From positions 310,001 to 374,000 of the forward strand of contig JAJNDK010000002.1 in assembly GCA_021156365.1 (NCBI GenBank): a stretch of DNA of 64,000 nt. Direction: 5' to 3'. The position numbers were made by a program, and so were the translations under genes. Under the pieces are notes generated by a model that did not search any database, was not told the origin of the DNA, and worked only from the letters and a program-made list of their open reading frames with translations. Origin of the DNA: Bacteroidota bacterium. GTDB lineage: Bacteria; Bacteroidota; Bacteroidia; B-17B0; Aurantibacillaceae. Below, one piece after another: positions 8,169 through 34,062 of the stretch (its first letter is position 1; each line of letters begins with the position of its first letter).

Positions 8169-8214
8169 CAAACACCCATAGAATAACAAACACATCAATA
8201 AAAAAACAAATCGA

Positions 8215-11200: not shown

Positions 11201-14200
11201 CTGCGGACTGGGATACCGACACGATCAGTTTGAATGCTTATGTAGGACAAAGCGTCATTGTGAAATTCGAGGTAACCAACCGATATGGGCAAAATCTGTA
11301 TATTGATGATATCAATATTACATCGACTGCTGCTGCTCCTGTTGCCAACTTTACGTCGGCAGTCACTAAGTGTGCCGGTCAGCCGGTTGCGTTTACAGAT
11401 GCTTCTACCAATACACCTACCAGCTGGAACTGGTCGACTACGCCGGCAACAGGTGTAACGATCACTTCGGCTACTTCACAAAACCCGACCATCACCTTTC
11501 CAACAGCAGGAACCTATACGGTATCTCATACTGCAACCAATGCTGTAGGTACAAGTCCATCGTTCACACAGGCAGTAACAGTAAATGCAACACCTGCTAT
11601 GACAAGCGCCGCCACTGCGAATGTATGTAGCGGAGCGGCAGTTGGTATTGCACTTACCGCCAGCACCGGCTCTAACTACAGCTGGATCGCAACGGCTAAT
11701 GCAAACGTGACAGGTGAAAGCACTACGGCACAAACTACAACGACGATCAATAATACACTTACCATTTCTTCGGGCACCACTCCGCAAACAGTGACGTATT
11801 CGGTTACTCCTACTGCTACAACAGGCGGTTGCGTGGGTACAGCACAAACCGTAACTGTTACCGTAATTCCATTACCAACTGTTACCAATGCAACTACAGC
11901 AAGTGGTTGCAGCGGATCAGCGCTGAACATTCCATTAACGGCGAGTGCAGCCTCTTCTTTCAGCTGGATCGGTAATAACAATGGAAGCACTAATGGTGAG
12001 AGTACAACCGCACAGACAACCAGCACGATCAATAACACCGTGACGATCACTGCAGGAACTACTTCACAGAATATTACCTACTCCATCACACCAACTTCCA
12101 CAACCGGAAGCTGTGTTGGTCCAATGCAAACTATGACGGTTACGATCAACAGGCTGCCGACCATGTCGAGCGCTAATACGGCTACCGTATGTAGCGGGGT
12201 GGCATTGAATATTGCACTTACAAGCACCCTCACATCCACCTACAGCTGGATAGCGGCTGATAATGCCAACACGATCGGTGAAAGTACTACAGCTCAAACA
12301 AGCGCTACGCTCAACAACACGATCAACAGTACAGCCACAACGAATCAAACAGTAAACTACTCTGTTACTCCGACATCAGCAGCCGGTTGCGTAGGTACCG
12401 TACAAACAGTGACAGTAACAGTAAGACCGGCTCCGAATATGACCAGCGCTTCTTCAGCTTCTATTTGCAGCGGAACGGCGGTGAACATTCCATTAACGAG
12501 CAGCATTGCAGCAAACTATAGCTGGATCGCTACCGCTAATGCAAACACATCGGGTGAAAGCACAACCGCACAAACAACCGCGACGATCAATAATACACTA
12601 GCGGTTACTGTCGGAACAGCAGCTCAGACTGTAACGTATTCGGTTACTCCTACTTCTACAGCAGCAGGAAGCTGTGTAGGACCGGTACAGACAATAAATG
12701 TAACGGTAACACCTGCACCGACTATGACAAGTGTTAACACTGCAACCGTATGTAGCGGATCGGCACTTTCGATCCCATTGGCAAGCAGTGTACCTTCTTC
12801 TTATAGCTGGATCGCTGCCAACAATGCAAATACGGCTGGCGAGAGTACCACTGCACAAACTGCAACTACGATCTCCAATACGATCACGATCACTGGTTCA
12901 GGTAATCAAACAGTAACCTATTCGGTAACTCCTACTTCTACTGCAGGAAGCTGCCTGGGTACGCTACAAACTATTACAGTAACGGTGAGGGCATTACCAA
13001 CCGTAACAGCTACTTCGGTTCCTGTAAGTGGTGCCGTATGTACCGGTTCGCAGATCACACTTAGTGGTGGCGGCGCTACTACTTATACCTGGACAGGTGG
13101 TGTTTCTAACGGAACCGCATTTACACCGGCTTCTTCAGTAACATACACTGTAACCGGAACGGATGTAAATGGCTGTATCAATACAGCCACCCAGGTTGTC
13201 ACGCTTAACAGCTTACCAACTGTAACAGCTACTTCGGTTCCTGCAAGTGGTGCCGTATGTGCCGGTTCGCAGATCACACTCAGTGGCGGTGGCGCTACTA
13301 CCTACACATGGACCGGTGGTGTTACCAACGGAACGGCGTTTACACCGGCTTCTTCAGTAACATACACTGTAACGGGAACAGATGGAAATGGTTGTACCAA
13401 TACAGCAACTAAAGTTGTAACTATAAATTCATTACCGAATGTAGGTGTTAACTCTCCGTCGACCTGCTCGGGTTCTCCGGTGGCACTGATCGCAACAGGT
13501 GCAAGCACCTATACATGGAGCACAACGGGTACAGGCTCTTCTATTTCTGTGAGCCCTGTCAGCAATACATCGTATACCGTAACCGGTACTGATGCGAATG
13601 GTTGTGTGAATACGGCTGTATCAAACGTAACGATCACATCCGCACCGAATGTAATAGCTAACTCTGTAACGATCTGTGAAGGCCAGTCCGCTACGATCAC
13701 GGGATCAGGAGCATCTACTTACTCATGGAGCAATGGTGATGCGACTGCATCCTCAACCGTAAGCCCAACTACGACTACGAGTTATACAGTAACTGGTTCC
13801 AACGGACCAGGCTGCTCCAATACAGCAATTGCTATGGTAACCGTGAACTCTTTGCCTGATGCAAGTATCGGAACTCCTTCCACTATAGACTGTATCAATA
13901 CAAGCGTAACGCTTACAGGTTCCAGCACTGCCCCGGGCGCATCTTACCAATGGACTTCAGGACCTGCCACAGCCGCCTACGCTGTTTCGGCAGCAGGATC
14001 CTATACTCTGATAGTAACGGATGCCAATGGATGTTCCGCTTCAGCTACAACCAATGTTACTTCCAATACTGCTCAACCGGATGTAAACATTGCTGCTCCT
14101 GCGCAACTAAGCTGTATAACAACAACAGTTACACTCACAGGATCCAGCTCTACTCCGGGAGCAAGTTACCAATGGACTTCGGGACCTGCCACAGCTACTT

Positions 14201-14994
14201 ATGATGTTTCGGCAGCGGGTTCTTATACACTGACAGTGACAGATCCGGTTAATGGTTGTTCAAGCACAGATATTGCAACTGTTACTACCAACACCACTGT
14301 TGTGAACGTAACAGCCAACAGCTCCACAGCAACTACCGTTTGCGGCGGAACAGCTGTTACACTAACTGCAGGCGGGGCCAACACTTATGTGTGGGACGAC
14401 GCTTCAACCAATGCTATCAATACTGTTTCTCCGACCACCACCACCACTTACAGTGTTACCGGTACGGATGTAAACGGCTGTATCGGGACTGCTTCCGTTA
14501 CCGTAAATGTATTTGCTCCGAATGTGCCAACGGTTTCTCAAACAGGAACAACGCTCACTGCTTCTTCTGCAGTATCGTACCAGTGGTATTTCAACGGAAA
14601 TCCAATGCCGGGTGAAACCAACCAAACGCTTAACGTTACACAGAACGGAACGTATACAGTGGAAACTGTTGATGTAAACGGCTGTACAAACACTTCCACC
14701 GGATTCACTGTTGCCAACATCGGTATCAAAGATGTTACGATGAACGCTTCCATCACCATTTACCCGAACCCGAACAACGGAAGCTTTGAGGTAAAAGGAA
14801 ATGTGGATTCGAAATCGGAATACACGCTGGAACTGAGAAATATGTTAGGCCAGCTGATCCAACTGGAAACGATCAAAAACACTTCTTCTTTCAACAGGGC
14901 TTTCTCTATGGAAACGAATGATGCGGGCGTTTATTTCATCATCATCCGCAACACGGAAGGCGCAAGCTCTGTGCACAGGGTGATAGTGGAATAA
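8215..14994 (+). CDS. Secreted reprolysin-like zinc metalloprotease with a large PKD/Ig repeat stalk and T9SS sorting domain
   Basis: A 2259-residue protein. Signal peptide about 1-26 ending in SATAQ, then a propeptide. The metzincin catalytic domain (about 205-440) has zinc ligands His358, Glu359, His362 and His368 in HEIGHQFSGNH and a Met-turn at Met394 (TIMGYAGIC). The usual Gly at position 8 of the zinc motif is Ser here, with Gly at position 9. A cadherin/PKD-like domain (DADGDPLTYSWEQFD) follows, then Ig-like modules, a choice-of-anchor J domain (about 848-1040), a PKD domain, five PKD-like repeats (about 1126-1592), more Ig-like modules and a type A T9SS domain (ITIYPNPNNGSFEV to HRVIVE). 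It probably acts outside the cell or on its surface. It pairs with the upstream S8 protease, which has the same stalk module types. A strong terminator follows. Confidence 0.92.
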   Translation: MQKRRNSVVKSLIAGALLLTVSSATAQEQRVDNWKPIFEKEVRTQGQRVIIPSKYRIFRVADDLKSILFSAPHETTVSLQTSPVIIDLPMPDGSLQKFRVVEAPVMEAELANQFPDIKTFSVVGVDQPGTYGKLDWTEFGFHGMLFASGERIFIDPYCRNNTEDYISYYTSDFSKDQSQRMIPECGATDIGDDATQRLASPPPSVLANIWAGTTLRTYRLAIACTGEYAQAATGLPNPTDPQILAVVTTSINRVDGVYETEAAIRMVLVANEAAILWGTGASDPFNGNNNAGTLITESQTQITNIIGAANFDIGHTFSTGGGGLAGLGVVCTNGQKARGITGSPNPVGDPYDIDYVAHEIGHQFSGNHSYNQCTGNATQNAGTMVEPGGGVTIMGYAGICAAADNIAMNSIAYFHTISFDEIMTFSNTGNGNVCPVKPSTGNNIPVVTGSANYTIPRMTPFTLTGSATDADGDPLTYSWEQFDNNSTNHAVGTASPYFRSLVPSTSPSRTFPRMTTVLTGATSNLGEYLPNTAQTLNFRLTARDNRMGGGGVRYAASQVTIAASGPFTIATPNTTGITWASSSTQNVTWNVNSTNTAPVSCANVRLLLSTDGGATYPTVILASTPNDGTQSITVPPQATTINTCRIKAEAIGNIFFDVNDNNFTITASAAPIASVSIALTTGSNPMCPGANAVFTATPFNGGTAPTYQWQVNGSNVGTGATYATTTLTNGQTVTCIMTSNLPGVVGSPATSNIITMTVGSTVPSVVIAGPSVLCAGATATYTATPTNGGSLPTYQWQVNGTNAGTAATFASSTLTNGQAVTCIMTSNAGCQATPTVTSNTITVTVNSSAALPFSENFEGATFPPTGWVLQNADNGAVAWGTAGAKTLVRRPAAGNAGSANGSAAINCFEYNTDTTQVDNLLSVPVNLVGAGNPRMTFKRSYKYYNEATAPTNFHDELRVYVSTDCGATFGSSVYFKKGVQLATNGTINTTFTPAVAADWDTDTISLNAYVGQSVIVKFEVTNRYGQNLYIDDINITSTAAAPVANFTSAVTKCAGQPVAFTDASTNTPTSWNWSTTPATGVTITSATSQNPTITFPTAGTYTVSHTATNAVGTSPSFTQAVTVNATPAMTSAATANVCSGAAVGIALTASTGSNYSWIATANANVTGESTTAQTTTTINNTLTISSGTTPQTVTYSVTPTATTGGCVGTAQTVTVTVIPLPTVTNATTASGCSGSALNIPLTASAASSFSWIGNNNGSTNGESTTAQTTSTINNTVTITAGTTSQNITYSITPTSTTGSCVGPMQTMTVTINRLPTMSSANTATVCSGVALNIALTSTLTSTYSWIAADNANTIGESTTAQTSATLNNTINSTATTNQTVNYSVTPTSAAGCVGTVQTVTVTVRPAPNMTSASSASICSGTAVNIPLTSSIAANYSWIATANANTSGESTTAQTTATINNTLAVTVGTAAQTVTYSVTPTSTAAGSCVGPVQTINVTVTPAPTMTSVNTATVCSGSALSIPLASSVPSSYSWIAANNANTAGESTTAQTATTISNTITITGSGNQTVTYSVTPTSTAGSCLGTLQTITVTVRALPTVTATSVPVSGAVCTGSQITLSGGGATTYTWTGGVSNGTAFTPASSVTYTVTGTDVNGCINTATQVVTLNSLPTVTATSVPASGAVCAGSQITLSGGGATTYTWTGGVTNGTAFTPASSVTYTVTGTDGNGCTNTATKVVTINSLPNVGVNSPSTCSGSPVALIATGASTYTWSTTGTGSSISVSPVSNTSYTVTGTDANGCVNTAVSNVTITSAPNVIANSVTICEGQSATITGSGASTYSWSNGDATASSTVSPTTTTSYTVTGSNGPGCSNTAIAMVTVNSLPDASIGTPSTIDCINTSVTLTGSSTAPGASYQWTSGPATAAYAVSAAGSYTLIVTDANGCSASATTNVTSNTAQPDVNIAAPAQLSCITTTVTLTGSSSTPGASYQWTSGPATATYDVSAAGSYTLTVTDPVNGCSSTDIATVTTNTTVVNVTANSSTATTVCGGTAVTLTAGGANTYVWDDASTNAINTVSPTTTTTYSVTGTDVNGCIGTASVTVNVFAPNVPTVSQTGTTLTASSAVSYQWYFNGNPMPGETNQTLNVTQNGTYTVETVDVNGCTNTSTGFTVANIGIKDVTMNASITIYPNPNNGSFEVKGNVDSKSEYTLELRNMLGQLIQLETIKNTSSFNRAFSMETNDAGVYFIIIRNTEGASSVHRVIVE
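11590..12990 (+). repeat. Five tandem PKD-like repeats, about 285-bp period
   Basis: Inside the metalloprotease gene. Each unit begins with a CSG motif (VCSGAAV, GCSGSAL, VCSGVAL, ICSGTAV, VCSGSAL) and contains YSWIA or FSWIG, then GESTTAQT and VTYSVTP. Unit starts fall near 11617, 11900, 12181, 12451 and 12738. The copies have diverged at the DNA level, so the array is old. Confidence 0.85.
13012..13449 (+). repeat. Near-identical 219-bp tandem duplication encoding an Ig-like module
   Basis: Two adjacent 73-residue modules in the metalloprotease stalk share nearly all residues (SGAVC, GSQITLSGGGATTYTWTGG, SSVTYTVTGTD). The starts at 13012 and 13231 give a 219-bp period, which preserves frame. 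The high nucleotide identity points to a recent duplication or gene conversion, unlike the older PKD-like array just upstream. Confidence 0.8.
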
Positions 14995-21545: not shown

Positions 21546-24191
21546 CTACTCCTTCACCAGTTTGAAGGTCTTCTGGCCTTTTTTGCTTTTTACAGTAACA
21601 AAGTAGATACCGGAGTGAAGCTGTTCCACGCTCAGGGTTTCGGTTTTAGCCGCCATTCGTTTTTTGAGGATAGTTTTACCTAACACATCAATAATTTCTA
21701 TAGAAGCGCTATTTTCATCTTCTGTTTCTATCGTTATCATTGTGCTTGCCGGGTTCGGATACATGTTGGCGGCGAGCTCATTCCTTGTAGAAGTTTTAAT
21801 GCTTACTGTTGACAGATCGAGGCAGCTCGGGAAGCTATTGGTAGCATACCAGTTTTTGATCCTTTTTACGTCCTGCTCATTCTGTGAAAAAGCCGCAAAA
21901 TTATTGGAACTTCCCACCCGGGTAAATACCATAGCGTACACCATTTTAGCTGTATCTTTTGCTGCGAGATGAAAAGGGCCGGATCCCATCAAAAATCTTC
22001 TGTCGCCCGGCATATTGCCTGCTGTAATCTCTGACCATGCCGGCGCTGCAACAGGGTTTCCGGGATTGCCTCCCAGACCATATCCGATAGGATCAGAAAC
22101 CCCCGGATAATGATAAGTAGTTGTTTGCGTTCCCGTTACGCCATCTCCTCCATACTTCATCGTGCTTCCGTTTTTCCAGATGCCTTTCAGATAATTATAG
22201 TAATGCTGCTGCTGTGAAGGATTTCCTGAAACAGCATCCCCGTTATTCCTATAATACATGAAGGATGACATCCCCAACTGTTCTCCCGGTTCATCCGTAA
22301 TGCCATTATGGTTGTTGTCCTCTCCGTCATTTACATCTGCGAGTGGTGCCTGCATGATCGCCGTGCTGAAAAAAGGAAGATCACTGTGATAGCCTATCAC
22401 TCCCTGGTTATCGTCATCGTAATTGTCTCCATTGTATACATACCCATAATTTTCTGTCACGTTGCAACCCACATAATCATCAATGTAATTCCCAAGATCC
22501 ACATCGTTCCAATAACCAATATACATACTATCGATACTGTTACTACTCCTGTTAATGATCTCGAATTCATAGAAAGTGGTATAGTTCAGAGCCTTCAAAC
22601 TATCCGCAATTCCCGGACAGGTATAAGCATATGATTTTTGACGGATCTCCACTCCCATCGCGGCCATTGTTCCATGCGTTTCCAGATGCAGATCACTGGC
22701 ATCATTGTATACATGATACAACATCTGATCGCCTTTGATATCCGGGTAATCTCCACCTGTTAAAGGATCGTAGGCGCCATTTTGATTTACATCTACGAAA
22801 GGGGCTTTGCTTCTGGAAAAATTGCCGGTATCATGTGCCGGCCAGTGCATAATTCCCCATGAAGGCGTAAACGCACCGGATTGCACATTTCCATTATTGA
22901 AATTATAGATGAAGTTTTCAATGTCGAAGCGGTTTACTTTTATCACCGGGCCTAAAGCCTGGGTTGGTTGATTGGAAGCAGTAACTGTATCCAATGATCC
23001 CGGCCAGAAATCATGCCCGTTCTGGCGATAGGTCTGACAAGCGGTCCGCAATTGTCCATTCACCTTTCCACCCAGCCATAAGCTTCCCGCAAAAGTAGCC
23101 ATAGAGCCACTGCCTTTCGGAACTTCATATTTAGGATTGCTGTTTATATCCCAAAACATATCGGCCCGATCAAGTACCATCGCGTTCACCTCATTTACAT
23201 CCAGGTTTTGACGCGCGCAATCACTGTAATAATTATTTATGGGGCTTTGGAGTGGGTTCAGCTGAACAGCATCTACTTTAAGTATGGATTTCACGCCACC
23301 TATCATCGCCAAAGCATAATAATAGTTTCCCTTGTGATATATTCTGGCGGCAGCAGGCACTAAAATCTGGCTTATCGTTCCATTCGTATAATTCACAAGT
23401 CCCTGACTGCCTGCCATCGTCACGCCTCCATTCACTCCTGATATCATAGGCCTTCCATAGAGCGGTCCGCCCAGATCAACAGTAATGCATACATCAGTAG
23501 GCGTGATTGGAACATACGCGCCATTTACGAACTGATAAATACCGGACACATTTCTCAGCCAGATCTCTGTTCCACTAACAACAATTTCACTTAGGTTTTG
23601 TAAAGCAGCATAATTCTGGATTCCCAATGTGTTCAGCACAGACAATCCGAAATTAGTTCCAATGTACAGGTCGCTTCCTGAAAATGCAAGACTCAAAACT
23701 AAGTTTGAATTAAGGGTCGAATTTGTTGTATTGTAATGCGTCCAGTTACTACCATCAAAAAGGCTTACACCATTGGGTGTACCGATCCATAGATCATTGT
23801 TATTACCCACAGCAAGACAGGTAATGTTATTTGTGCTCAAACCGGAATTAGACGTGTTGTACACCGCCCAGTTGGTTCCATCGAAGCTGACAAGTCCATT
23901 GGAGGTACCGAACCAGTATAGTCCGGCATTATCCTGGGCAATCGCATTGATAGTATTGGATGGAAGACCTGAATTAGTTGTTTGGTAGAATGCCCAGGTA
24001 GTACCGTCATATTTCCGTAACCCCTGACTTGCGCCGACATGGGAAAACCAGATGTTGTCAGCATTGTCCACCATCAATGTTTTCACTGCACCTACAGACC
24101 AGCTGTTAGGTGCCGGAATAACCAGGGTATCAATCTGCGCATTCAGTTTTGTTGCAAAACAAATAATGCTGAGGAGTAAAAATCTTTTCAT
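21546..24191 (-). CDS. Secreted two-component-regulator-propeller-like protein with T9SS sorting domain
   Basis: An 881-residue protein starting at the ATG at 24191, which gives a clean signal peptide (MKRFLLLSIICFATKLNAQ); the upstream in-frame extension lacks one. Residues about 30-240 hold beta-propeller repeats of the regulator-propeller type (WFSHVGASQGLRKYDGTTW, then YWFGTSNGLVSFDGTNW, LWIGTPNGVSLFDGSNW). The middle carries acidic Ca-binding-like stretches (DVNQNGAYDPLTGGDYPD, DVNDGEDNNHNGITDE). The tail is a type A T9SS domain (NMYPNPASTMITI to TFKLVKE). Propellers of this kind normally sit on hybrid histidine kinases; here the module is in a secreted protein with no kinase. It is a surface or secreted protein of unknown ligand. 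Confidence 0.85.
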   Translation of the reverse strand: MKRFLLLSIICFATKLNAQIDTLVIPAPNSWSVGAVKTLMVDNADNIWFSHVGASQGLRKYDGTTWAFYQTTNSGLPSNTINAIAQDNAGLYWFGTSNGLVSFDGTNWAVYNTSNSGLSTNNITCLAVGNNNDLWIGTPNGVSLFDGSNWTHYNTTNSTLNSNLVLSLAFSGSDLYIGTNFGLSVLNTLGIQNYAALQNLSEIVVSGTEIWLRNVSGIYQFVNGAYVPITPTDVCITVDLGGPLYGRPMISGVNGGVTMAGSQGLVNYTNGTISQILVPAAARIYHKGNYYYALAMIGGVKSILKVDAVQLNPLQSPINNYYSDCARQNLDVNEVNAMVLDRADMFWDINSNPKYEVPKGSGSMATFAGSLWLGGKVNGQLRTACQTYRQNGHDFWPGSLDTVTASNQPTQALGPVIKVNRFDIENFIYNFNNGNVQSGAFTPSWGIMHWPAHDTGNFSRSKAPFVDVNQNGAYDPLTGGDYPDIKGDQMLYHVYNDASDLHLETHGTMAAMGVEIRQKSYAYTCPGIADSLKALNYTTFYEFEIINRSSNSIDSMYIGYWNDVDLGNYIDDYVGCNVTENYGYVYNGDNYDDDNQGVIGYHSDLPFFSTAIMQAPLADVNDGEDNNHNGITDEPGEQLGMSSFMYYRNNGDAVSGNPSQQQHYYNYLKGIWKNGSTMKYGGDGVTGTQTTTYHYPGVSDPIGYGLGGNPGNPVAAPAWSEITAGNMPGDRRFLMGSGPFHLAAKDTAKMVYAMVFTRVGSSNNFAAFSQNEQDVKRIKNWYATNSFPSCLDLSTVSIKTSTRNELAANMYPNPASTMITIETEDENSASIEIIDVLGKTILKKRMAAKTETLSVEQLHSGIYFVTVKSKKGQKTFKLVKE

Positions 24192-24285
24192 AATATTCGT
24201 ATTTGTCCCAAATGTAGTTGCTCCCCTGCTCTGAAATGTATATGAATTAGTAAGTGGTGGCTTTGACTTGATAAGTGGTAAAAGC

Positions 24286-24317
24286 AAAAAAGCGCAGATC
24301 TTTCGAAATGCGCTTTT
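24286..24317 (-). terminator. Orphan rho-independent terminator
   Basis: On the minus strand, AAAAGCGCA (24309-24317) pairs perfectly with TGCGCTTTT (24288-24296) and runs into further Ts. It lies 23 nt beyond the stop of the T9SS-tail remnant, which suggests it once ended that gene. Confidence 0.8.
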
Positions 24318-24340
24318 ATTGCCTGGTTTTAGTTGTGTGT

Positions 24341-24478
24341 TTATTGTTGTTTTATCCACCTGATCACCTTAGCGGTATTATCCGTGCCGATCTGTAAAAA
24401 GTAAACGCCGTCGGCTTCGTCAGGGAGGCTTAAACTGTGCTGCGAAGAGCCGCAAGTGAAAAGCGGATCGCTGCTGTT
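24341..24478 (-). pseudogene. Remnant of a T9SS type A sorting domain
   Basis: The minus strand encodes SLSLPDEADGVYFLQIG, then TDNTAKVIRWIKQQ and TAA at 24341-24343, a typical end of a type A sorting domain. No gene body precedes it: going upstream the frame enters the 63-bp repeat region and meets a stop near 24608. The orphan terminator follows directly. I read it as the 3' end of a former secreted-protein gene whose body was lost or replaced. Confidence 0.7.
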
Positions 24479-24805
24479 CTCTCTCTTCCTTCGGAAAATA
24501 AAGAGCGAATAGCAGAAAGTAATAAGCGGATAGCAGTTATTTGCTTGTCTATTTCTGAAAACACAAAACGAATTGCAGAAAACAATGAGCGGAAAGCAGC
24601 GATTCGCTTATCCATTGCGGAAAACACAAAACGGATTGCGGAAAACAATAAGCGGAAAGCAGCGATTCGCTTATCTATTGCGGAAAACACAAACCGAATT
24701 GCAGAAAACAATGAGCGGAAAGCGGCTGTTATTTTCTTTCGGGCGGCAATTGCAAAGCGTCTTTTGAAGACCCGCTCCACTTATTCAGCCATTCCTTCCA
24801 TTTAA
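24437..24805 (+). CDS. Heptad-repeat ORF (122 aa), possibly a truncated coiled-coil protein
   Basis: GTG-start frame. It contains four 21-residue units built from heptads of the form IAENTKR, IAENNER and KAAIRLS, with regular Ile/Ala and alternating charge, suggesting a helical coiled coil. Between copies 3 and 4, five of six nucleotide differences fall at third codon positions of this plus frame and four of those are synonymous, which supports coding here rather than on the opposite strand (also open, 24430-24780). There is no ATG, and a stop lies one codon upstream, so the true 5' end may be lost. It overlaps the T9SS remnant on the other strand. Function unknown. Confidence 0.45.
   Translation: MLRRAASEKRIAAVLSLPSENKERIAESNKRIAVICLSISENTKRIAENNERKAAIRLSIAENTKRIAENNKRKAAIRLSIAENTNRIAENNERKAAVIFFRAAIAKRLLKTRSTYSAIPSI
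24473..24724 (+). repeat. 63-bp tandem repeat, four copies
   Basis: Unit starts lie at 24473, 24536, 24599 and 24662, exactly 63 bp apart. Each unit has an internal 21-bp sub-period (ATTGCGGAAAACACAAAACG-like blocks). Copies 3 and 4 are most similar; copy 1 is the most diverged. Confidence 0.85.
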
Positions 24806-24960
24806 AACGTTTCAGCCAACCACCTGCAAAATTGCTGTAACTTTTCGAAACGCTCTATCGTTATATCCTTCAAAAGCTACCCCGCATATCAGTAAAGGGC
24901 CGTAGCGATAAAACAAAAAAAAGGAGTTACGCATGAGTATATTTTTAGTTTCTTTTCTTC

Positions 24961-25055
24961 CTGTCCTGTAGAATGCGGGTAGACAAAGTGGAGCAGGTTA
25001 CCTGCAGGACAGTTGGATCTTTTCGGAGGCTTTTAGCGAAAAAAGCCGGGCTCCG
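24961..25055 (+). promoter_or_regulatory. Structured leader candidate upstream of the frameshifted gene
   Basis: CTGTCCTG (24961-24968) pairs with CAGGACAG (25005-25012); the 13-nt palindrome GCAGGTTACCTGC (24993-25005) lies inside. A second hairpin (GGCTTTT with AAAAGCC, flanked by CGGA/TCCG) follows near 25027-25055. A 12-codon ORF (24933-24971, MSIFLVSFLPVL) preceded by AAGGAG ends inside the first arm. It could be a regulatory leader or a repeat relic. Confidence 0.3.
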
Positions 25056-25076
25056 CATCAACTAAAAATTTACAAA

Positions 25077-25678
25077 ATGAACATACCAAAAATAAGGGTA
25101 GCCTTATACATGCACAGCATGTCGGTACCCAACAAGATCATTAAAGCAAAAACCATACGCGCAGCCCTGCAGGCAAATGCAACTGTATTCCCCGGAGCCG
25201 CTGCACTCATCACCAGCCTCACTGCTGCTATCACCGCTCTGGAAACTTCCTGGACCAACGCCGAGGATGGTGGAAAAAGCCTGAAAGCCATGATGCGTCA
25301 ACGCGAGCGCGAGTTCGACCAGGTGATGCAATTAGTGGCCAACTATGTAGAGAGCACCGCCAACGGCAACCCGGCTATCATCATCCTCTCTACCCTCGAT
25401 GTGGCGCAGGCAAATCCGGGGACGCAAACCCAGTCTTTTAAAGTGAAACAGGGCGAAAGCGGCACGGTGCTGCTACGCACCAAATCGGAAAAAGGCGCGG
25501 CTTATACCTGGGAGTATAGCGTGGATAACATTAACTGGATCCATGCAGGCTCCGGCATCAAAAGCAGCCTGCTCGCGGAAAACCTGGTACCCGGCCCCGC
25601 TACTGGTTCCGCGTAGCTCTCATCGACAAAGAAGGACGGCACCCTTTTTCGGAAGCGATCAGCCTGATCGTAGTGTAG
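25077..25678 (+). pseudogene. FN3-containing hypothetical protein with a single-base frameshift
   Basis: The open frame gives 179 residues and stops at 25614-25616 after VPGPATGSA. Shifting frame at 25596-25598 continues the fibronectin type III signature as RYWFRVALIDKEGRHPFSEA to a stop at 25676-25678 (26 more residues). Restoring one base in GGCCCCGC would give the classic L-V-P-G-T-R-Y-W-F-R-V. The N-terminal 110 residues (MNIPKIRVALYMHSMSVPNK, later YVESTANGNPAIIILS) form a helical domain found in other small Bacteroidota proteins of this kind. A good terminator follows the restored stop, so the gene was once intact. Either a recent mutation or a sequencing error explains the shift. Confidence 0.75.
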
Positions 25679-25701
25679 TCTGCTGAGATGCTTAAGGTTC
25701 T

Positions 25702-25737
25702 AACCCCTGCTCTTGCTAAAGAAGAGCGGGGGTTTTT
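25702..25737 (+). terminator. Rho-independent terminator after the frameshifted FN3 gene
   Basis: A 13-bp stem (25702-25714 with 25722-25734, one T-G pair) closes a GCTAAAG loop and runs into TTTTT (25733-25737). It sits 24 nt after the restored stop. Confidence 0.9.
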
Positions 25738-25755
25738 GGGTTAAGTGGGTGGGTT

Positions 25756-25807
25756 GGGATTATAAATCCCGTGACTTATTTATTCCGCAGGATTGCAAAT
25801 CCTGCGG
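25756..25807. repeat. Paired REP-like palindromes
   Basis: Two perfect palindromes 14 bp apart: GGGATT-ATA-AATCCC (25756-25770) and CCGCAGGATT-GCA-AATCCTGCGG (25785-25807). Paired hairpins of this form are typical of dispersed REP/REPIN elements. The rest of the 330-bp spacer up to 26006 shows no gene. Confidence 0.7.
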
Positions 25808-26005
25808 AGCGGTACTGGGGGGAAGAAAAGCTATATTCTTCATCACTCACCGAACGGCTCCTGTACGGATTATTTTTCAGCTTCCCGAATTTTGTAGTTA
25901 AGCACATTACAAAACTCAGCTCTTTCGAATGCGTCTTTTTCAGGTTGATGAGTTGTAACCTGTTTTTGTTTTATCCACCGGATCCGGTCAGATTCGATCT
26001 GCCGA

Positions 26006-26047
26006 AAATAAAAGGCCGCCAGGATACTTAGGATCCGGACGGCCTTT
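26006..26047 (-). terminator. Rho-independent terminator of the giant SprB-repeat gene
   Basis: On the minus strand AAAGGCCG (26040-26047) pairs with CGGCCTTT (26011-26018), enclosing a GGATCC/GTATCC-containing loop, and is followed by TATTTT. It starts 21 nt after the stop. Confidence 0.85.
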
Positions 26048-26068
26048 AGCGTTGTTCAAAATTAACCT

Positions 26069-29000
26069 CTAATCTGTCACAACGATTTTGTTCCTGGTAG
26101 AATTGTCTTTCCCGATCAGGTAGTATACACCTGCACCCAGGTTATCGATACGAACTGAATAATTATTGTCTGTATTCAATCCGATAGTTTTAATCTGCTG
26201 ACCCAGTTCATTTATAAGATAATAAGTGCCTTCAGGCGCTTTTACAGTGAATGTCCCGGTATTCGGGTTCGGCATGATGAGTATTTCGGATCTGTCCGCT
26301 TTCAGCGATCTGATGCCGATGGTAGTTATACTCATACAGGCGCTTGTATCGGAGCAACCATTGATCATAACTATCACGGCGTAATTTCCGTTGGCCGTTG
26401 CTGTAAATGATTGATTGGTCTCATTCAGAACCGGAGTATTACCGTTATCGCAATCAAGCCATTGGTATCCAGCGCCTGTTGCCGTAGCAGTAATTGTTTC
26501 TGCAACAGTAGAAGTTGTTACATCAATCGCAGTTTCTACAATAACATTTGTAGTAATGGTACTATCGCAACCGTTTACTGCCGTCAACACATCTGAATAA
26601 ATTCCAGTGGCAGTATATGTGTTCGGCCCGACTGTTATGGATTGTCCTGCACACAGTGTAAATGTCTGTGAATGGGTGACAGCTGTGTTAAGGGTCAGGT
26701 TTAAAGTGAGCATACTGTCGCAGCCTGCAATGTTCATCAGCGTTTGTGTATAGGTGCCGCTTGAAGTGTAAGTGGTTCCATTCAGCGTGAAGCTACCGCA
26801 AGCTGTTTCATTCAGAGTGGAAGTACTTGGCTGGTTCACTGTTAAGTTCAGTGTAAGCGTACTGTCACAACCTGCTGCATTTGTGAAGTTTTGCGTATAG
26901 ACCCCGCTTGTAGTATAAGTTGTGCCGTTCAATGTGTAGCTGCTGCATGCCGTGGCATTCACAGTAGAAGCAGTCGGCTGGCTCACTGTTAAGTTCAGTG
27001 TAAGTGTACTGTCGCAACCTGCTGCATTTGTGAAGTTTTGCGTATAGACTCCGCTTATAGTATAAGTAGTGCCGTTCAATGTGTAACTGCTGCATGCCGT
27101 GGCATTCACAGTAGAAGCAGTCGGCTGGTTCACTGTTAAGTTCAGTGTAAGTGTACTGTCACAACCTGCTGCATTTGTGAAGTTTTGTGTATAGACTCCG
27201 CTTGTAGTATAAGTAGTGCCGTTCAATGTGTAGCTGCTACATGCCACGGCGTTCATAGTAGAAGCAGTCGGCTGGTTCACCGTTAAGTTCAGTGTAAGTG
27301 TACTGTCGCAACCTGCTGCATTTGTGAAGCTTTGTGTATAGACTCCGCTTGTATTGTACGTTGCTCCATTCAGCGTATAACTGTCGCATGCTATTGCGCT
27401 CAGTGCGGAGGCAGTTGATTGCAGGATCGTCAGGTTCAGTGTGATCGTGCTGTCGCAACCTGTAGAACTTGCTCCTGTGAGCACCTGGGTATAGATTCCA
27501 TTTGCAGTATAAGTAGTCGCGTTCAATGTATATGCATCACATTCCGTTACAGTCAGTGTGGAAGTAATAGCAGACGGTTCAGTAATGGTGAAGTTTATAG
27601 ATTCAGAACAAGCGTTTACATCTGTTGCAGTTACCGTCCACGTTCCTGCAGTTAATCCGCTGACAGAAGTTGTTCCGTCACCTGTTGGATTGCCGGGTGT
27701 CCAGTCGTAAGTGAATGCGCCGGTTCCACCTACTGCTGCATTAACTTCAAACGCTCCGTTACTTCCGCCAAAACAGGAAACGTTTGTTTGTGAAGCAGCG
27801 GTGAAAGAAATTTGAGAAGGTTCTGTAATGGTAAAGTTTATAGATGCAGAACAAGCGTTTACATCTGTTGCAGTTACCGTCCACGTTCCTGCAGTTAATC
27901 CGCTGACAGAAGTTGTTCCGTCACCTGTTGGGTTGCCGGGTGACCAGTCGTAAATGAATCCACCTGTTCCGCCTACTGCTGCATTAACTTCAAACGCACC
28001 GGTATTTCCGCCAAAACAGGAAACGTTTGTCTGTGAAGCAGCGGTGAAAGAAATTTGAGATGGTTCTGTAATGGTGAAGTTTATAGATGCAGAACAAGCG
28101 TTTGCATCCGTTGCCGTTACTGTCCATGTTCCTGCAGTTAATCCGCTGACAGAAGTTGTTCCGTCACCTGTTGGATTGCCCGGTGCCCAGTCGTAAATGA
28201 ATCCGCCTGTTCCGCCCGTTGCTGCATTAACTTGAAACGCTCCGTTACTTCCGCCAAAACAGGAAACGTTTGTCTGTGAAGCAGCAGTGAAAGAAATTGC
28301 CGGTGGTTGGTTTACTGTTGGAGTAACTGTTGCCACACATCCGTTTATATCCGTAATTTGCACCGAATAGGTTCCTGCTACAAGTCCTGTGCGATCTTCT
28401 GTTGTCGGACCGGATGGCAGCCAGTTAAATGTGTATGATCCGCTTCCACCTGATGGTGTTAAGTTGATTGCTCCGTTTGATCCGCCAAAGCAGGATATAT
28501 TTGTAACAACAGTAGTTCCCGAAACAGGCGTTGTTGGTTGAGTAACTGAAGCTGCCACAGTTGCGACACAACCATTTAAATCGGTGATCTGCACCGAATA
28601 TGTTCCCGCAATTAATCCCGTTCTGTCTTCTGTTGTCGGACCGGATGGAAGCCAGGTAAATGTGTATGATCCGCTTCCACCTGATGGTGTTAAGTTGATT
28701 GCTCCGTTTGATCCGCCAAAACAAGAAACGTTTGTAACTACTGTACTCCCTGAAACAGGTGTTGTTGGTTGAGTTACTGTTGCTGTTACTGTTCCAACGC
28801 AACCATTAATATCTGTAATTTGCACCGAATAGGTTCCTGCTACAAGTCCTGTGCGATCTTCTGTAGTCGGACCGGATGGTAACCAGTTAAAGGTGTATGA
28901 TCCACTTCCGCCTGTTGGTGTTAAGTTGATTGCTCCATTCGATCCGCCGAAGCAAGATACATTTGTAACAACAGTAGTTCCCGAAACAGGCGTTGTTGGT

Positions 29001-32000
29001 TGAGTAACTGAAGCTGTCACAGTTGCGACACAACCATTTAAATCGGTGATCTGAACTGAATAGGTTCCCGCAACAAGTCCTGTACGATCTTCTGTAGTCG
29101 GACCGGAAGGAAGCCAGTTAAATGTGTATGATCCACTTCCACCTGATGGTGTTAAGTTGATTGCTCCGTTTGATCCGCCGAAGCAGGACACGTTGCTTAC
29201 AACAGTTGTTCCCGACACAGGCATTGTTGGTTGAGTAACTGAAGCTGTCACAGTTGCGACACAACCATTTAAATCGGTGATCTGAACTGAATAGGTTCCT
29301 GCTACAAGTCCGGTCCGGTCTTCTGTTGCCGGACCTGATGGCAACCAGTTAAAAGTATATGGAAATGTTCCTCCTGTCGGTGTTAGATTGATTGCGCCAT
29401 TCGATCCGCCGAAGCATGAAACATTGGTTACAACTGTTGTTCCTGATACCGGTGAGGTTGGTTGAGTAACGCTGGCAGTAACTGTAGAAACACATCCATT
29501 CACATCGATGACCTGAACAGTATATATTCCTGCAACCAATCCTGTTCTGTCTTCTGTTGTTGGGCCTGAAGGTAGCCAGTTGAAAGTATAAGGTCCGGTT
29601 CCACCGGTTGGAGTTAAGTTGATGGCACCGTTTGATCCACCAAAGCATGAAACATTGGTTACAACTGTGGTTCCTGAAACAGGAGCTATTGGTTGGTTTA
29701 CTGTTGCAGTAACTGTTGCAACGCAACCATTAATGTCAATAACTTGTACTGAATAAGTTCCTGCAACTAATCCTGTACGATCTTCTGTATTCGGGCCTGA
29801 TGGTAACCAGTTAAATGTATAAGGCCCTGTTCCTCCGTTTGGAGTTAAGTTGATAGCGCCGTTTGATCCACCAAAGCATGAAACATTGGTTACAACTGTG
29901 GTTCCTGAAACAGGAGCTGTTGGTTGGTTTACTGTTGCAGTAACAGTTGCAACGCAACCATTAATGTCAATTATCTGCACTGAATAGGTTCCTGCAACTA
30001 ATCCTGTTCTGTCTTCTGTAGTAGGACCTGATGGTAACCAGTTAAATGTATAAGGACCTGTTCCGCCTGCTGGAGTTAAGTTGATTGCACCGTTTGAGCC
30101 GCCAAAACAACTCACAGATGTTTCAACGGTTGTACCCGATACAGGACTTGCAGGTTCAGTTATTGTTTCAGTCACTGTTTCTGTACAGCCACTCGCATCG
30201 GTAATAATAACGGTGTAGGTTCCCGCTGCCAATCCTGTTCTGTCTTCGGTTGTAATTCCACTTCCCCAATTAAATGTATACGGACCCGTTCCGTCTGCCG
30301 GGGTTAAATTAATAGCACCGTTAGAGCCACCGAAACAGCTTGCGTTTGTTACAACCGTTGTTCCTGATAAAGGCGCTGACGGCTCCGTTATAGTTGCGCT
30401 AAGCGTTGCAGTACAGTTATATGTATCCAAAATGGTTACATTATATGTGCCTGGTGTAAGCCCGGAGCGGTCTTCTGTTGATGTTCCAGAGTATAAACCA
30501 GGATTAAATCCTGTTGGAACAGAAGTAAAAGCAGTTTGTCCGAAATTACTGGTTATATTAATATTTAAATTAGCGGAAGCGGAAGCATCATAGATATACG
30601 GCTTATAGGTGCCGGCCGGTAATGTAAAAGCGAGCCCCATTGAAACACCATTTTTGTAGAAGGTAAGCTGGTTGCCGGTCAGGTCTAATGCCACACCTAT
30701 TATATCACCTGTGGTGGAAAGAATGGAATAAGATGAGGGGGTGAGATTTGTGTATTTTAGCCCTGTATTCGTATAATAAGTATACCGGGTTCCGGTGCCT
30801 GTATTTATTACGCCCATCATAGTAGCATGGTTTCCTCCGGCATCAAGCGTGTTTTCCCAATACCATTTTCCGCTGTTAACTCCTATAGTACCCCGAACAT
30901 TCTGGGTGTTTCCCGATGTTGTTGCAGCATGAAGATTTCCTGCCGAGAGCGTTAGTGCACCAACAATGGTAGTAGGATCCCAGGTAGCATACGTTGTAAG
31001 ATCTTCCCACATTACTGTATAACCTGGTGTTCCACCGGCAGGAGTTAAATTAATTGCTCCGTTCGATGTACCAAAGCAGGCATTCGTTATTACTGTTGTT
31101 CCGGATACCGGAGCTGCCGGTTGAGTTACTGTAGCAGTTACTGTTCCTGTGCAGCTGTTTCCATCTGTAATAATTACGGTGTATGTTCCGGCTGTGAGGC
31201 CAGAGCGGTCTTCCGTTATAATAGAGCTTCCCCAGTTAAAAGTATAAGGAGTTGTTCCGCCTGATGGTGTTAAGTTAAGAATACCTGTGGACCCACCAAA
31301 GCAGGCTATGTTTGTAACGACTGTGGTTCCGGATACCGGAGCTGCTGGTTGAGTTACGGTAGCAGTTACAGTTCCTGTACAGCTGTTTGCATCCGTAATA
31401 GTTACGGTGTAGGTTCCCTGTGCAGCTGTTCTGTCTTCGGTTGTTATACCACCGCCCCAGTTAAAGCTATAAGGAGCTGTTCCGCCTGAGGGTGTTAAAT
31501 TAATAACACCGTTTGACCCACCGAAACAGCTTACGGCTGTGACAACAGTTGCTCCTGAAACCAGATCAGGAGTGGTGTATCCTGACACTACAGCCCCCGG
31601 TGCCACCCAGTTGGAAACCGTTCCGCTTAATGCGAAACCGGTTAGCGATCCTGTATTCGAATTGCCGGAAACATCACTTAATGTAGTATTGGTTGGATTT
31701 GCTGTAGTAGCCGCCCCCTGGTTGAAATGATAATTCGCTATCAGGCCGGTAGCGGTTGAAGCTATTTCGCAATTTTTATAGGTATTGATCTCGCATGAGG
31801 TACGTGCCGTATTCCAGATTCTTACTTCGTCTATGGTTCCTGTAAAATTTTCGTTTGGAAAGGAAACATCATTTACAGATCCTATACATACAGGTATACC
31901 CGTAAAAGAAGTAACAATACCTGCGTTCACTGATCCTGCTAAAATTCCGTTGAGATAAAATGTAGTGTTGCCCGGTGTCATAACACATGCCAGGTGATAC

Positions 32001-33697
32001 CAGGTATTAGGATTAATTGCGCCTGCAGGAACACTCAGGTAAGTTACACCATTATATATACCTACTTCATTCGTGCTTTCGTTCACATGAATGCTCCACC
32101 GCGTATTGGAAACGGCAGTCCGCATACAGGCTACTGATTCATTATCTGCTGAACCAGCAGAATTAAACCAGCACTCTACGGTTCCGGTTGTAAAATTAAA
32201 TGCTGTATTAGCTGGTACGGTTACTTTATCATCAGCTCCGTCAAAGTTTAAAGCGGCTCCGGGAGGAAAGCCTATTTTTTGAATATACATATCGCCGGCG
32301 CCTCCTAAGGAGGTTAAATTAGTTATGCCCGATCCATCATCAAAATCCACCGTTCCGTTAAAAGTACCGGTAACATATACATTCTGCGAAGCATCTGTAG
32401 TGATTCCGTAGCCGTAATCTGCGGATGTAGAGCCCTGTTGTTTAGCCCATACCAAATCTCCGGCTGCAGTGAAGCTTACAATAAATATATCATTATTACC
32501 AGCAGCCGTTAAGTTGACTGTTCCGGCACCCGGGTCAAAATCAATAGTACCCGAAAAGTAGCCCGTAATATATACATTGCCTGTAAGATCTACAGCCACA
32601 TCGTGCGAAGGATAAAAACTTGTGCCGCCTATGTTTTTTGCCCATACAAAAATACCGGCAGCATCTAATTTGGAAAGAAATATATCTCCGGCGCCAGCAG
32701 CAGTTAAATTAACTGTGGCTGCTCCCGGATCAAAATCTACGGTGGCTGCAAAATAACCCGTTGTGTATATATTACCCGAAGCATCCAGTGCCAGACCCTG
32801 AGTTTCACCACTGCCTCCATTGCCTGTATTTCTGGCCCAAACAAAAGTTCCCGCAGTATTCAGCTTGTAAACAAACAAGCCCTGACCGCTAGCGGTTAGA
32901 TTAACTGTTCCCGCACCCGGATCAAAATCAACCGTACCATTGAAGGAGCCTCCCATATATACATTGGCCGATGCATCAACTGCTATAGCCATAGCCTGGT
33001 CGTTGCCCGTGCTGCCGTTTCTTCTAGCCCATACGAAATTGCCGTCGAAATCCAGTTTGGAAACAAATATATCCTTATTGCCGGCGGATGTTAAATTAGC
33101 TAGTCCTGCACCCGGATCAAAATCAACCGTGGCACCGAAACTACCTGTACTGTATACATTAGCCGAAGCGTCCAAAGTAATTGATTGACCAGTATCATCT
33201 CCTGTTCCTCCCATGGCTTTGGCCCATACAAAACTACCTGCTGCATCCAGCTTAACAACCATTATGTCAGTACCACCTGCAGAGCTTAAAGGAAAGCTTC
33301 CCGCGCCCGGGTCAAAATCTACGGTAGCCTGAAAATAGCCCGAAACATATACATTGCCCGAAGCATCCACTGCAATGTCATTACCCTGGTCGTATCCGGT
33401 ACTTCCCATAGCTACAGCCCATACAAAATTACCGGAGGCATCCAGCTTGGAAACATACATGTCTATGTTGCCACCGGCCGTTAAAGGGAAGCTTCCTGCA
33501 CCCGGATCAAAATCAACAGTGCCTGTAAAATAGCCTGTTGTGTACACATTGCCTGAAACATCAACAGCAACGGAGAGTCCTATGTCAGTTCCTGCTGAGC
33601 TGCCCACCGATTTTGCCCACAGAAGGGCATTGTTCTGGGCATTAACAGTAAAACCTGTAATACAGGTGAGTAGTAATAAGAGTATTGTTTTTTTCAT
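26069..33697 (-). CDS. Giant SBBP-propeller/LamG/SprB-repeat surface protein with T9SS sorting domain
   Basis: A 2542-residue protein starting at the ATG at 33697, which gives the signal peptide MKKTILLLLLTCITGFTVNAQ; the longer frame adds seven residues. Domains in order: about ten SBBP-type beta-propeller repeats (25-485, repeating VDFDPGAG and NVYVTG-like motifs); a LamG-like domain (about 490-660, LNFDGADDKVTVP); fifteen SprB-type repeats (about 712-2042, VSCFGGSNGAINLTP and TEDRTGLVAGTY), the third split by a SPRY-like domain; seven 49-residue repeats (about 2046-2350, SSYTLNGTTY and GCDSTLTLNLTV); and a type A T9SS domain (ILIMPNPNTGTFTV to KIVVTD). SprB itself is the mobile adhesin of Flavobacterium gliding, so an adhesin or surface-layer role is plausible. 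The gene is monocistronic. Confidence 0.9.
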   Translation of the reverse strand: MKKTILLLLLTCITGFTVNAQNNALLWAKSVGSSAGTDIGLSVAVDVSGNVYTTGYFTGTVDFDPGAGSFPLTAGGNIDMYVSKLDASGNFVWAVAMGSTGYDQGNDIAVDASGNVYVSGYFQATVDFDPGAGSFPLSSAGGTDIMVVKLDAAGSFVWAKAMGGTGDDTGQSITLDASANVYSTGSFGATVDFDPGAGLANLTSAGNKDIFVSKLDFDGNFVWARRNGSTGNDQAMAIAVDASANVYMGGSFNGTVDFDPGAGTVNLTASGQGLFVYKLNTAGTFVWARNTGNGGSGETQGLALDASGNIYTTGYFAATVDFDPGAATVNLTAAGAGDIFLSKLDAAGIFVWAKNIGGTSFYPSHDVAVDLTGNVYITGYFSGTIDFDPGAGTVNLTAAGNNDIFIVSFTAAGDLVWAKQQGSTSADYGYGITTDASQNVYVTGTFNGTVDFDDGSGITNLTSLGGAGDMYIQKIGFPPGAALNFDGADDKVTVPANTAFNFTTGTVECWFNSAGSADNESVACMRTAVSNTRWSIHVNESTNEVGIYNGVTYLSVPAGAINPNTWYHLACVMTPGNTTFYLNGILAGSVNAGIVTSFTGIPVCIGSVNDVSFPNENFTGTIDEVRIWNTARTSCEINTYKNCEIASTATGLIANYHFNQGAATTANPTNTTLSDVSGNSNTGSLTGFALSGTVSNWVAPGAVVSGYTTPDLVSGATVVTAVSCFGGSNGVINLTPSGGTAPYSFNWGGGITTEDRTAAQGTYTVTITDANSCTGTVTATVTQPAAPVSGTTVVTNIACFGGSTGILNLTPSGGTTPYTFNWGSSIITEDRSGLTAGTYTVIITDGNSCTGTVTATVTQPAAPVSGTTVITNACFGTSNGAINLTPAGGTPGYTVMWEDLTTYATWDPTTIVGALTLSAGNLHAATTSGNTQNVRGTIGVNSGKWYWENTLDAGGNHATMMGVINTGTGTRYTYYTNTGLKYTNLTPSSYSILSTTGDIIGVALDLTGNQLTFYKNGVSMGLAFTLPAGTYKPYIYDASASANLNINITSNFGQTAFTSVPTGFNPGLYSGTSTEDRSGLTPGTYNVTILDTYNCTATLSATITEPSAPLSGTTVVTNASCFGGSNGAINLTPADGTGPYTFNWGSGITTEDRTGLAAGTYTVIITDASGCTETVTETITEPASPVSGTTVETSVSCFGGSNGAINLTPAGGTGPYTFNWLPSGPTTEDRTGLVAGTYSVQIIDINGCVATVTATVNQPTAPVSGTTVVTNVSCFGGSNGAINLTPNGGTGPYTFNWLPSGPNTEDRTGLVAGTYSVQVIDINGCVATVTATVNQPIAPVSGTTVVTNVSCFGGSNGAINLTPTGGTGPYTFNWLPSGPTTEDRTGLVAGIYTVQVIDVNGCVSTVTASVTQPTSPVSGTTVVTNVSCFGGSNGAINLTPTGGTFPYTFNWLPSGPATEDRTGLVAGTYSVQITDLNGCVATVTASVTQPTMPVSGTTVVSNVSCFGGSNGAINLTPSGGSGSYTFNWLPSGPTTEDRTGLVAGTYSVQITDLNGCVATVTASVTQPTTPVSGTTVVTNVSCFGGSNGAINLTPTGGSGSYTFNWLPSGPTTEDRTGLVAGTYSVQITDINGCVGTVTATVTQPTTPVSGSTVVTNVSCFGGSNGAINLTPSGGSGSYTFTWLPSGPTTEDRTGLIAGTYSVQITDLNGCVATVAASVTQPTTPVSGTTVVTNISCFGGSNGAINLTPSGGSGSYTFNWLPSGPTTEDRTGLVAGTYSVQITDINGCVATVTPTVNQPPAISFTAASQTNVSCFGGSNGAFQVNAATGGTGGFIYDWAPGNPTGDGTTSVSGLTAGTWTVTATDANACSASINFTITEPSQISFTAASQTNVSCFGGNTGAFEVNAAVGGTGGFIYDWSPGNPTGDGTTSVSGLTAGTWTVTATDVNACSASINFTITEPSQISFTAASQTNVSCFGGSNGAFEVNAAVGGTGAFTYDWTPGNPTGDGTTSVSGLTAGTWTVTATDVNACSESINFTITEPSAITSTLTVTECDAYTLNATTYTANGIYTQVLTGASSTGCDSTITLNLTILQSTASALSAIACDSYTLNGATYNTSGVYTQSFTNAAGCDSTLTLNLTVNQPTASTMNAVACSSYTLNGTTYTTSGVYTQNFTNAAGCDSTLTLNLTVNQPTASTVNATACSSYTLNGTTYTISGVYTQNFTNAAGCDSTLTLNLTVSQPTASTVNATACSSYTLNGTTYTTSGVYTQNFTNAAGCDSTLTLNLTVNQPSTSTLNETACGSFTLNGTTYTSSGTYTQTLMNIAGCDSMLTLNLTLNTAVTHSQTFTLCAGQSITVGPNTYTATGIYSDVLTAVNGCDSTITTNVIVETAIDVTTSTVAETITATATGAGYQWLDCDNGNTPVLNETNQSFTATANGNYAVIVMINGCSDTSACMSITTIGIRSLKADRSEILIMPNPNTGTFTVKAPEGTYYLINELGQQIKTIGLNTDNNYSVRIDNLGAGVYYLIGKDNSTRNKIVVTD
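26690..27560 (-). repeat. 147-bp tandem repeats encoding 49-residue CxxYTLNG modules
   Basis: Equivalent positions recur at 26874, 27021, 27168 and 27315, exactly 147 bp apart, with high nucleotide identity in the central copies and more diverged copies at each edge. Each encodes a Cys-Ser-Ser-Tyr and a Gly-Cys-Asp-Ser motif, so each module carries two Cys. Confidence 0.88.
27570..31560 (-). repeat. Fifteen SprB-type repeats, 231-bp core period
   Basis: Repeats 5-12 are 77 residues (231 bp) and nearly identical; repeats 1-4 lack the LPSG insertion; repeats 13-15 form a second subfamily beginning FTAASQTNVSCFGG. Repeat 3 is interrupted by about 520 bp encoding a SPRY-like domain. Confidence 0.9.
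30490..31015 (-). other. SPRY/B30.2-like domain inserted inside SprB repeat 3
   Basis: Within the giant protein (about residues 896-1069). SPRY signatures: NVRGTIGVNSGKWYWEN, then GDIIGVALDLTGNQLTFYKNG and YKPYIYDASAS. The SprB repeat reads GGTPGYTVMW before the insert and resumes STEDRSGLTPGTY after it, so the domain interrupts one beta unit rather than separating two repeats. Confidence 0.75.
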
Positions 33698-34005
33698 TTT
33701 AATAGATTCATTGGGCATGCATCAAAACCAGGAGACCGAAAGTAGCTTATTGGAATGTGTCCGAAAAAAATAAGGGCCGAACGACGAAACAAAGTATTTG
33801 AATTGCATGCAGAGGTTAATTTTGCCCTGCAAAAGTGGCGAAAGCAAGCTTGCCGGGAAATAGGGGCCTGCCCTCATATGTATACCCGGAATTAAAAAGC
33901 AAAACCCCGGTACGGCGATGTATATTCCCGGGCTGCCAGGTTAGCTCAATATATGATCGCGGATAGGCTTGTCATTTGGTAACTATAAGTTTGGATAAGT
34001 AAACA
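33698..34005. other. Intergenic spacer, no gene seen
   Basis: Upstream region of the giant surface-protein gene. It contains a TACTTTCG sequence on the minus strand (near 33738-33745) that differs by one base from TAnnTTTG, but no clear -33 partner. No ORF or RNA gene is recognisable. Confidence 0.5.
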
Positions 34006-34042
34006 TTAAAAAAAAACGGGATGCCTGAAAAAGCATCCCGTT
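34006..34042 (-). terminator. Rho-independent terminator of the slyD transcript
   Basis: On the minus strand AACGGGATGC (34033-34042) pairs perfectly with GCATCCCGTT (34015-34024) and runs into a long T tract. Confidence 0.92.
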
Positions 34043-34062
34043 CAGAATTTCATTGAATTCTA

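Follow-up and report, generated by a model that had tools for sequence, protein, structure and literature searches.

The window, that is, the whole stretch of 64,000 nucleotides analysed here, carries on its minus strand the gene for a large repeat-rich protein whose features are collected in Table 1. The SprB repeat profile (PF13573) scores 438.7 bits on the whole 2549-residue protein, which bears out the motif-based naming of the repeats in the first-pass annotation, and 15 stretches pass individually. The C-terminal domain matches TIGR04183 above its cut-off; PF18962 reaches 23.9 bits on the protein, below its cut-off of 27, and a CHU_C match is absent among the families reported for it. 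The T9SS translocon protein SprA (TIGR04189; 2397 bits, G000:C22) is present in the same genome. Judged by its sorting signal, the protein is a type A cargo of the type IX secretion system (T9SS).

Table 1 Features of the 2549-residue protein and of its interrupted repeat. Residues are those of the protein and positions those of the window.
Feature	Residues	Window positions	Strand	Remarks
Large T9SS-secreted surface protein, 2549 aa		26069-33718	minus	12 type A and 3 type B SprB repeats
Hydrophobic N-terminal segment				signal-peptide-like by eye
SBBP beta-propeller				N-terminal part
LamG-like domain	493-645
SprB repeats type A, n=12	720-1808
SprB repeats type B, n=3	1815-2051
CDSTLTLNLTV repeat run				between type B SprB repeats and sorting domain
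T9SS type A sorting domain	2481-2547	26075-26278	minus	TIGR04183 26.7 bits, cut-off 23
Intact SprB repeats 1 and 2		31109-31561	minus	upstream of split repeat
SprB repeat 3, N-terminal half	871-904	31007-31108	minus	ends PGYTVMW
SPRY block, first-pass boundaries	905-1079	30482-31006	minus
SPRY block, strict	905-1074	30497-31006	minus	by alignment
Core Pfam SPRY match (PF00622)	951-1043	30590-30868	minus
SprB repeat 3, C-terminal half	1080-1116	30371-30481	minus	starts STEDRSGLTPGTY
Intact SprB repeats 4-12		28295-30370	minus	after split repeat

Like SprB of Flavobacterium johnsoniae, the protein is large, highly repetitive, exported by T9SS and built with SprB-type repeats (PF13573). However, its sorting domain is of type A (TIGR04183), whereas that of SprB is of type B (PMC9143113), and it carries an SBBP propeller and a LamG domain at its N-terminus. 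Because of the type A tail, the protein is SprB only by its repeat and, on its sequence, is not an orthologue of the gliding adhesin. The description of a giant T9SS surface protein in the first-pass annotation stands as to size and sorting signal, and the name SprB applies to the repeat only. No RTX family is matched by the protein in the Pfam scan and, by its domain content, it is not an RTX adhesin.

A SPRY domain within the third SprB repeat

SprB repeat 3 comprises 246 residues (871–1116); the other 11 of the 12 type A repeats comprise 75–77. As first read from the sequence, repeat 3 stops after PGYTVMW (residues 898–904) and resumes at STEDRSGLTPGTY (from residue 1080). The two peptides share one open frame and are exactly 175 residues apart. 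The first-pass annotation had placed the intervening block at 30490–31015, with about 174 residues; we find 30482–31006 and 175 residues, and the offset is immaterial. When repeats 2–4 are aligned with seven uninterrupted three-repeat runs of the same protein by MAFFT, the SPRY block appears as one long gap in the middle repeat, after W904, and forms a single clean alignment block. In the same alignment, LYSGTSTEDR is paired with LPSGPTTEDR of the intact repeats, which gives a strict insert of residues 905–1074.

The two invariant cysteines of the repeats (C87 and C308 in model numbering) are both present in repeat 3. The first half alone scores 27.2 bits against PF13573, just below the cut-off of 28, and the two halves score 40.3 and 40.6 bits against an HMM built from the other repeats of the same protein. 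At the insert junctions, no flanking direct repeats of a mobile element are found. These data support a SPRY domain nested within a single SprB repeat of this large T9SS protein; as in a split-domain architecture, the stalk module reads, in sequence, as continuing past a whole nested domain.

The assignment of the block to SPRY, previously made by motif, is borne out by HMM search: PF00622 scores 48.7 bits (E 9.6e-13) on the insert and 42.3 bits within the whole protein, the curated cut-off being 26.3. Solved SPRY domains matched by the insert sequence in the PDB are those of DDX1, Ash2L, and TRIM, DDX1 being the best (E 6e-8). The insert retains all invariant core columns of 40 relatives and is free of frameshifts. 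We modelled repeats 2–4 using AlphaFold2, supplying 36 aligned SPRY sequences of viral contigs together with the seven intact-repeat runs. The SPRY part is mostly predicted with pLDDT >90 (a single-sequence prediction of the same segment, with pLDDT 37.6, is of no use), and Foldseek matches it to the SPRY domain of Ash2L with E 7.7e-12 and TM 0.82. The inserted block is a SPRY domain, with a predicted beta-sandwich fold.

The first-pass annotation further supposed that the SprB strands before and after the insert belong to one module. In the model, intact repeat 2 has four strands (18–24, 31–35, 50–57, and 63–70), as has intact repeat 4 (341–346, 353–356, 372–379, and 385–392). Split repeat 3 has the same four strands, two before the SPRY domain (93–99 and 106–110) and two after it (296–303 and 309–316). 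The strands are thus recovered, but the model is of low confidence over all SprB parts (pLDDT about 36–80, and about 36–70 in repeat 3), and packing of the two halves as one module is only suggested.

Phage relatives and sporadic occurrence of the inserted domain

By sequence, the closest relatives of the inserted SPRY domain are phage virion and tail-fibre proteins. SPRY domains had been described as best known from eukaryotes and some phages; the phage part of this statement stands, and the source can be named more specifically, the closest relatives found being phage structural proteins. The insert can be aligned over its full length with the closest phage SPRY proteins (PHROG 10080, 37978, and 19943), from a Y(A/C)T.(N/D)P start to an FG..F...P.G(F/Y) end, at 36–46% identity. 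The PHROG families matched are virion proteins, and the best identities to relatives are 43–46%. Unlike phage SPRY domains, which are located at the end of or between the domains of tail proteins, the insert is nested in a repeat of a secreted bacterial protein. Eukaryotic SPRY/B30.2 domains (Ash2L, DDX1, RanBP9/10, and TRIM) have the same fold (TM about 0.8 to Ash2L) and weak sequence similarity; they are intracellular peptide-binding modules and are far more distant from the insert than the phage relatives.

Six peptide patterns retrieve 289 confirmed relatives from 2.9 million viral contigs and 2 from 84,980 species genomes (257 billion bases). One of the latter (L039) comes from a contig of 31,626 bases, apparently the same as an IMG/VR record (L082). 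The SPRY relatives were collected from the viral set, so the tree is biased, and the two collection scans with equal patterns give the fairer comparison. At one viral locus (L040), the gene for the SPRY protein adjoins phage structural genes, and its product itself matches a tail-fibre family. Named phages with relatives include Methylophilales phage MEP301 and Acidovorax phage ACP17, and the domain finds its top viral fold match in a tail fibre protein of Burkholderia phage AH2. In a survey of jumbo phages, SPRY is described as a concanavalin-fold lectin domain tied to tail fibres and other virion parts (PMC7824862). One viral-contig protein in our set (L041; IMGVR_UViG_3300028902_000070) is made up of four tandem SPRY domains.

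Several phage relatives (L043, L079, L109, and L064) end with GYN(A/S)GLY, at most three residues from the protein C-terminus, and the insert ends with GFNPGLY. Since the end of the insert matches the C-terminal end of these relatives, a whole domain unit was inserted, and it was probably acquired from the phage virion-protein pool. The trees place the insert next to no phage donor; a clade of the insert and the SPRY domains of a second Bacteroidota protein (G215, described below) is not rejected, the constrained tree scoring above the free one, which speaks for neither a common nor an independent origin. The codon usage score of the insert is −1.207, against −1.135 (sd 0.077) for background windows, with nothing unusual. 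Because the tree gives no donor and the codon usage is ordinary for the window, the case for a phage origin is drawn from kinship and distribution. No SprB repeats are found in the viral contigs.

SprB repeats are present in 347 of the 395 sampled genomes of the class. SPRY domains are present in five of the 395, in three of them above the cut-off. Across the whole order (87 genomes), the phage-type SPRY profile has a strong match in the genome of the window only, and two weak ones. The insertion is carried by one sequence only and is absent from the sibling species. In a species of the same genus (L158, G002:C26; aldehyde dehydrogenase 94% identical), an FKBP-type gene is directly followed by the homologue of the window gene at 21546–24359, and this locus lacks the large gene (compared with window 24360–34062). 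The closest protein in the genome of the window (G000:C10) is 51% identical over the N-terminal 690 residues and has SprB repeats without a SPRY domain. On this distribution, both the large gene and the insertion appear to be lineage-specific.

Two SPRY domains of the same phage type occur in a 1039-residue T9SS protein of another Bacteroidota genome (L133, G215:C37:70000-82000). By eye, each is located within a short GG..DGF...CTPP repeat unit, as the insert is within its SprB repeat. However, these repeats are of a family unrelated to SprB, and the genome belongs to another bacterial family. SPRY is absent in six species of the same genus as this genome.

Split repeats and the proposed presentation of a binding head

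To place the insertion among SprB proteins at large, we took a census of 99 SprB open frames with 2303 repeat matches, searching for N and C halves set 30–450 residues apart. Eight split repeats are found among the 2303 matches, in four proteins including the present one, the other three being surface proteins of the same bacterial class. The rate is rough, since the sample was non-random, being made up of large frames with strong SprB hits, and the limits of the inserts were set automatically. The inserts seem to be of four or five kinds and occupy two loops. A 2492-residue frame (L179, G084:C117:1-14000) has four split repeats, with inserts of 124–137 residues that resemble F5/8 type C below the cut-off (best E 6e-4). 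A second protein (L174, G072:C65) has one split repeat, with an insert of about 159 residues without a Pfam match. A third (L208, G306:C84) has two: one insert looks by eye like the domain of the second protein, and the other differs, being of a TTFTQGGWG type. The insertion site is the loop before the YTYxW strand in these seven cases, and after that strand in the protein of the window.

Two further pairings (L188 and L162) were judged to be chance and dropped out at the second census pass. A protein considered as a second case of a nested SPRY domain (L199, G006:C32) has, on reading of the sequence, the domain between repeats. In another of the same family (L200, G020:C17), as in L199, SPRY- or lectin-like domains and SprB-like repeats follow one another in alternation, the domains standing between units.

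The architecture resembles that of the RTX adhesins MpIBP, FrhA, and AhLap, large repeat-rich surface adhesins in which a beta-sandwich stalk module is split by an entire binding domain, the two ends of which come out next to each other (PMC12077191, PMC10865825). In these adhesins, the projection of ligand-binding domains by Ig-like split domains is established (PMC12077191, PMC10865825). The present protein differs in being a cargo of the type IX and not the type I system, in that the module split is a SprB repeat and the head is SPRY, and in carrying the head in the middle of the array, whereas the ligand-binding region of RTX adhesins is C-terminal.

By this analogy, we consider it on balance probable that SprB repeat 3 acts as a split domain and carries a ligand-binding head away from the stalk. 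In this view, a complete SPRY beta-sandwich of phage type would be set into the beta-sandwich of the repeat, in the loop that follows the conserved Trp and joins strands two and three. The type IX system would export and anchor the protein, and the repeat array would form the stalk. The split repeat would keep the SPRY head off the stalk and leave its far face free for a putative ligand, which may be a glycan or a surface protein, carried by another cell, a particle, or a matrix. The presented binding head proposed in the first-pass annotation is supported by the RTX analogy and by the three additional SprB proteins with split repeats.

A rather unlikely alternative is that the SPRY domain is a tolerated passenger of little effect that landed in one of 12 redundant repeats, at a permissive loop, the work being done by other domains. 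This would agree with an insert found in one species, with no other strong match among the 87 genomes of the order, and with the absence of the whole gene at the locus in the nearest sibling. It would also agree with the divergence of repeat 3 beyond its neighbours (over the N half no other of the 12 is as diverged, and over the C half it ranks among the most diverged), which is what decay would also give. However, the SPRY core columns are all kept, the frame is intact, and the insert ends at natural domain boundaries. In addition, other species have unrelated domains nested in SprB repeats, one protein having four, and use is therefore favoured over accident.

Considerably less probable is a role as a decoy or mask, in which a head of phage-tail type binds the surface glycan or phage receptor of its own cell and hides it from phages. 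The nearest relatives are indeed phage virion and tail-fibre proteins, likely receptor binders, and SPRY has been reported as a lectin-type domain on jumbo-phage tail fibres (PMC7824862), but a matching SPRY domain is found in no phage of this host, and the identity between the insert and its phage relatives does not exceed about 46%, so that a common specificity is not to be assumed. An artefact of assembly or gene modelling, joining two loci inside the repeat array, is very improbable: although the gene is repetitive, the draft genome is in 23 contigs, and the junction is seen in no second genome, both junctions are read through in one open frame, the block sits exactly between complementary repeat halves, its composition and codon usage match (43% G+C against 45%), and the insert is the only SPRY domain of the genome, so that there is no second copy to mis-join.

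SprB repeats are usually read as plain stalk. Among the papers searched, none joined a SprB repeat with a SPRY domain; the use of a SprB repeat as split module for a SPRY head of phage type appears to be new, nested heads as such being already known in RTX adhesins. A wider proposal can be made tentatively: SprB repeats may be a general T9SS split-domain scaffold across Bacteroidota, displaying at two alternative loops interchangeable beta-sandwich heads of unrelated families, some of them from phage tails, as an evolutionary parallel to the RTX split domains. The present protein further suggests an exchange of binding modules between phage tails and the surface proteins of bacteria. If some SprB repeats are split domains, interrupted repeats would offer a simple route to the binding heads of very large T9SS surface proteins, for most of which no ligand is known, and the same rule already works in RTX adhesins (PMC12077191).

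The window encodes other T9SS proteins on its plus strand. A 742-residue protein (55675–57903) has SprB repeats and a CHU_C type B signal and is nearer to SprB in type than the 2549-residue protein. At 4809–14994, two T9SS proteins adjoin each other, a subtilase with PKD domains and a 2259-residue reprolysin-like protein with five PKD_5 domains.
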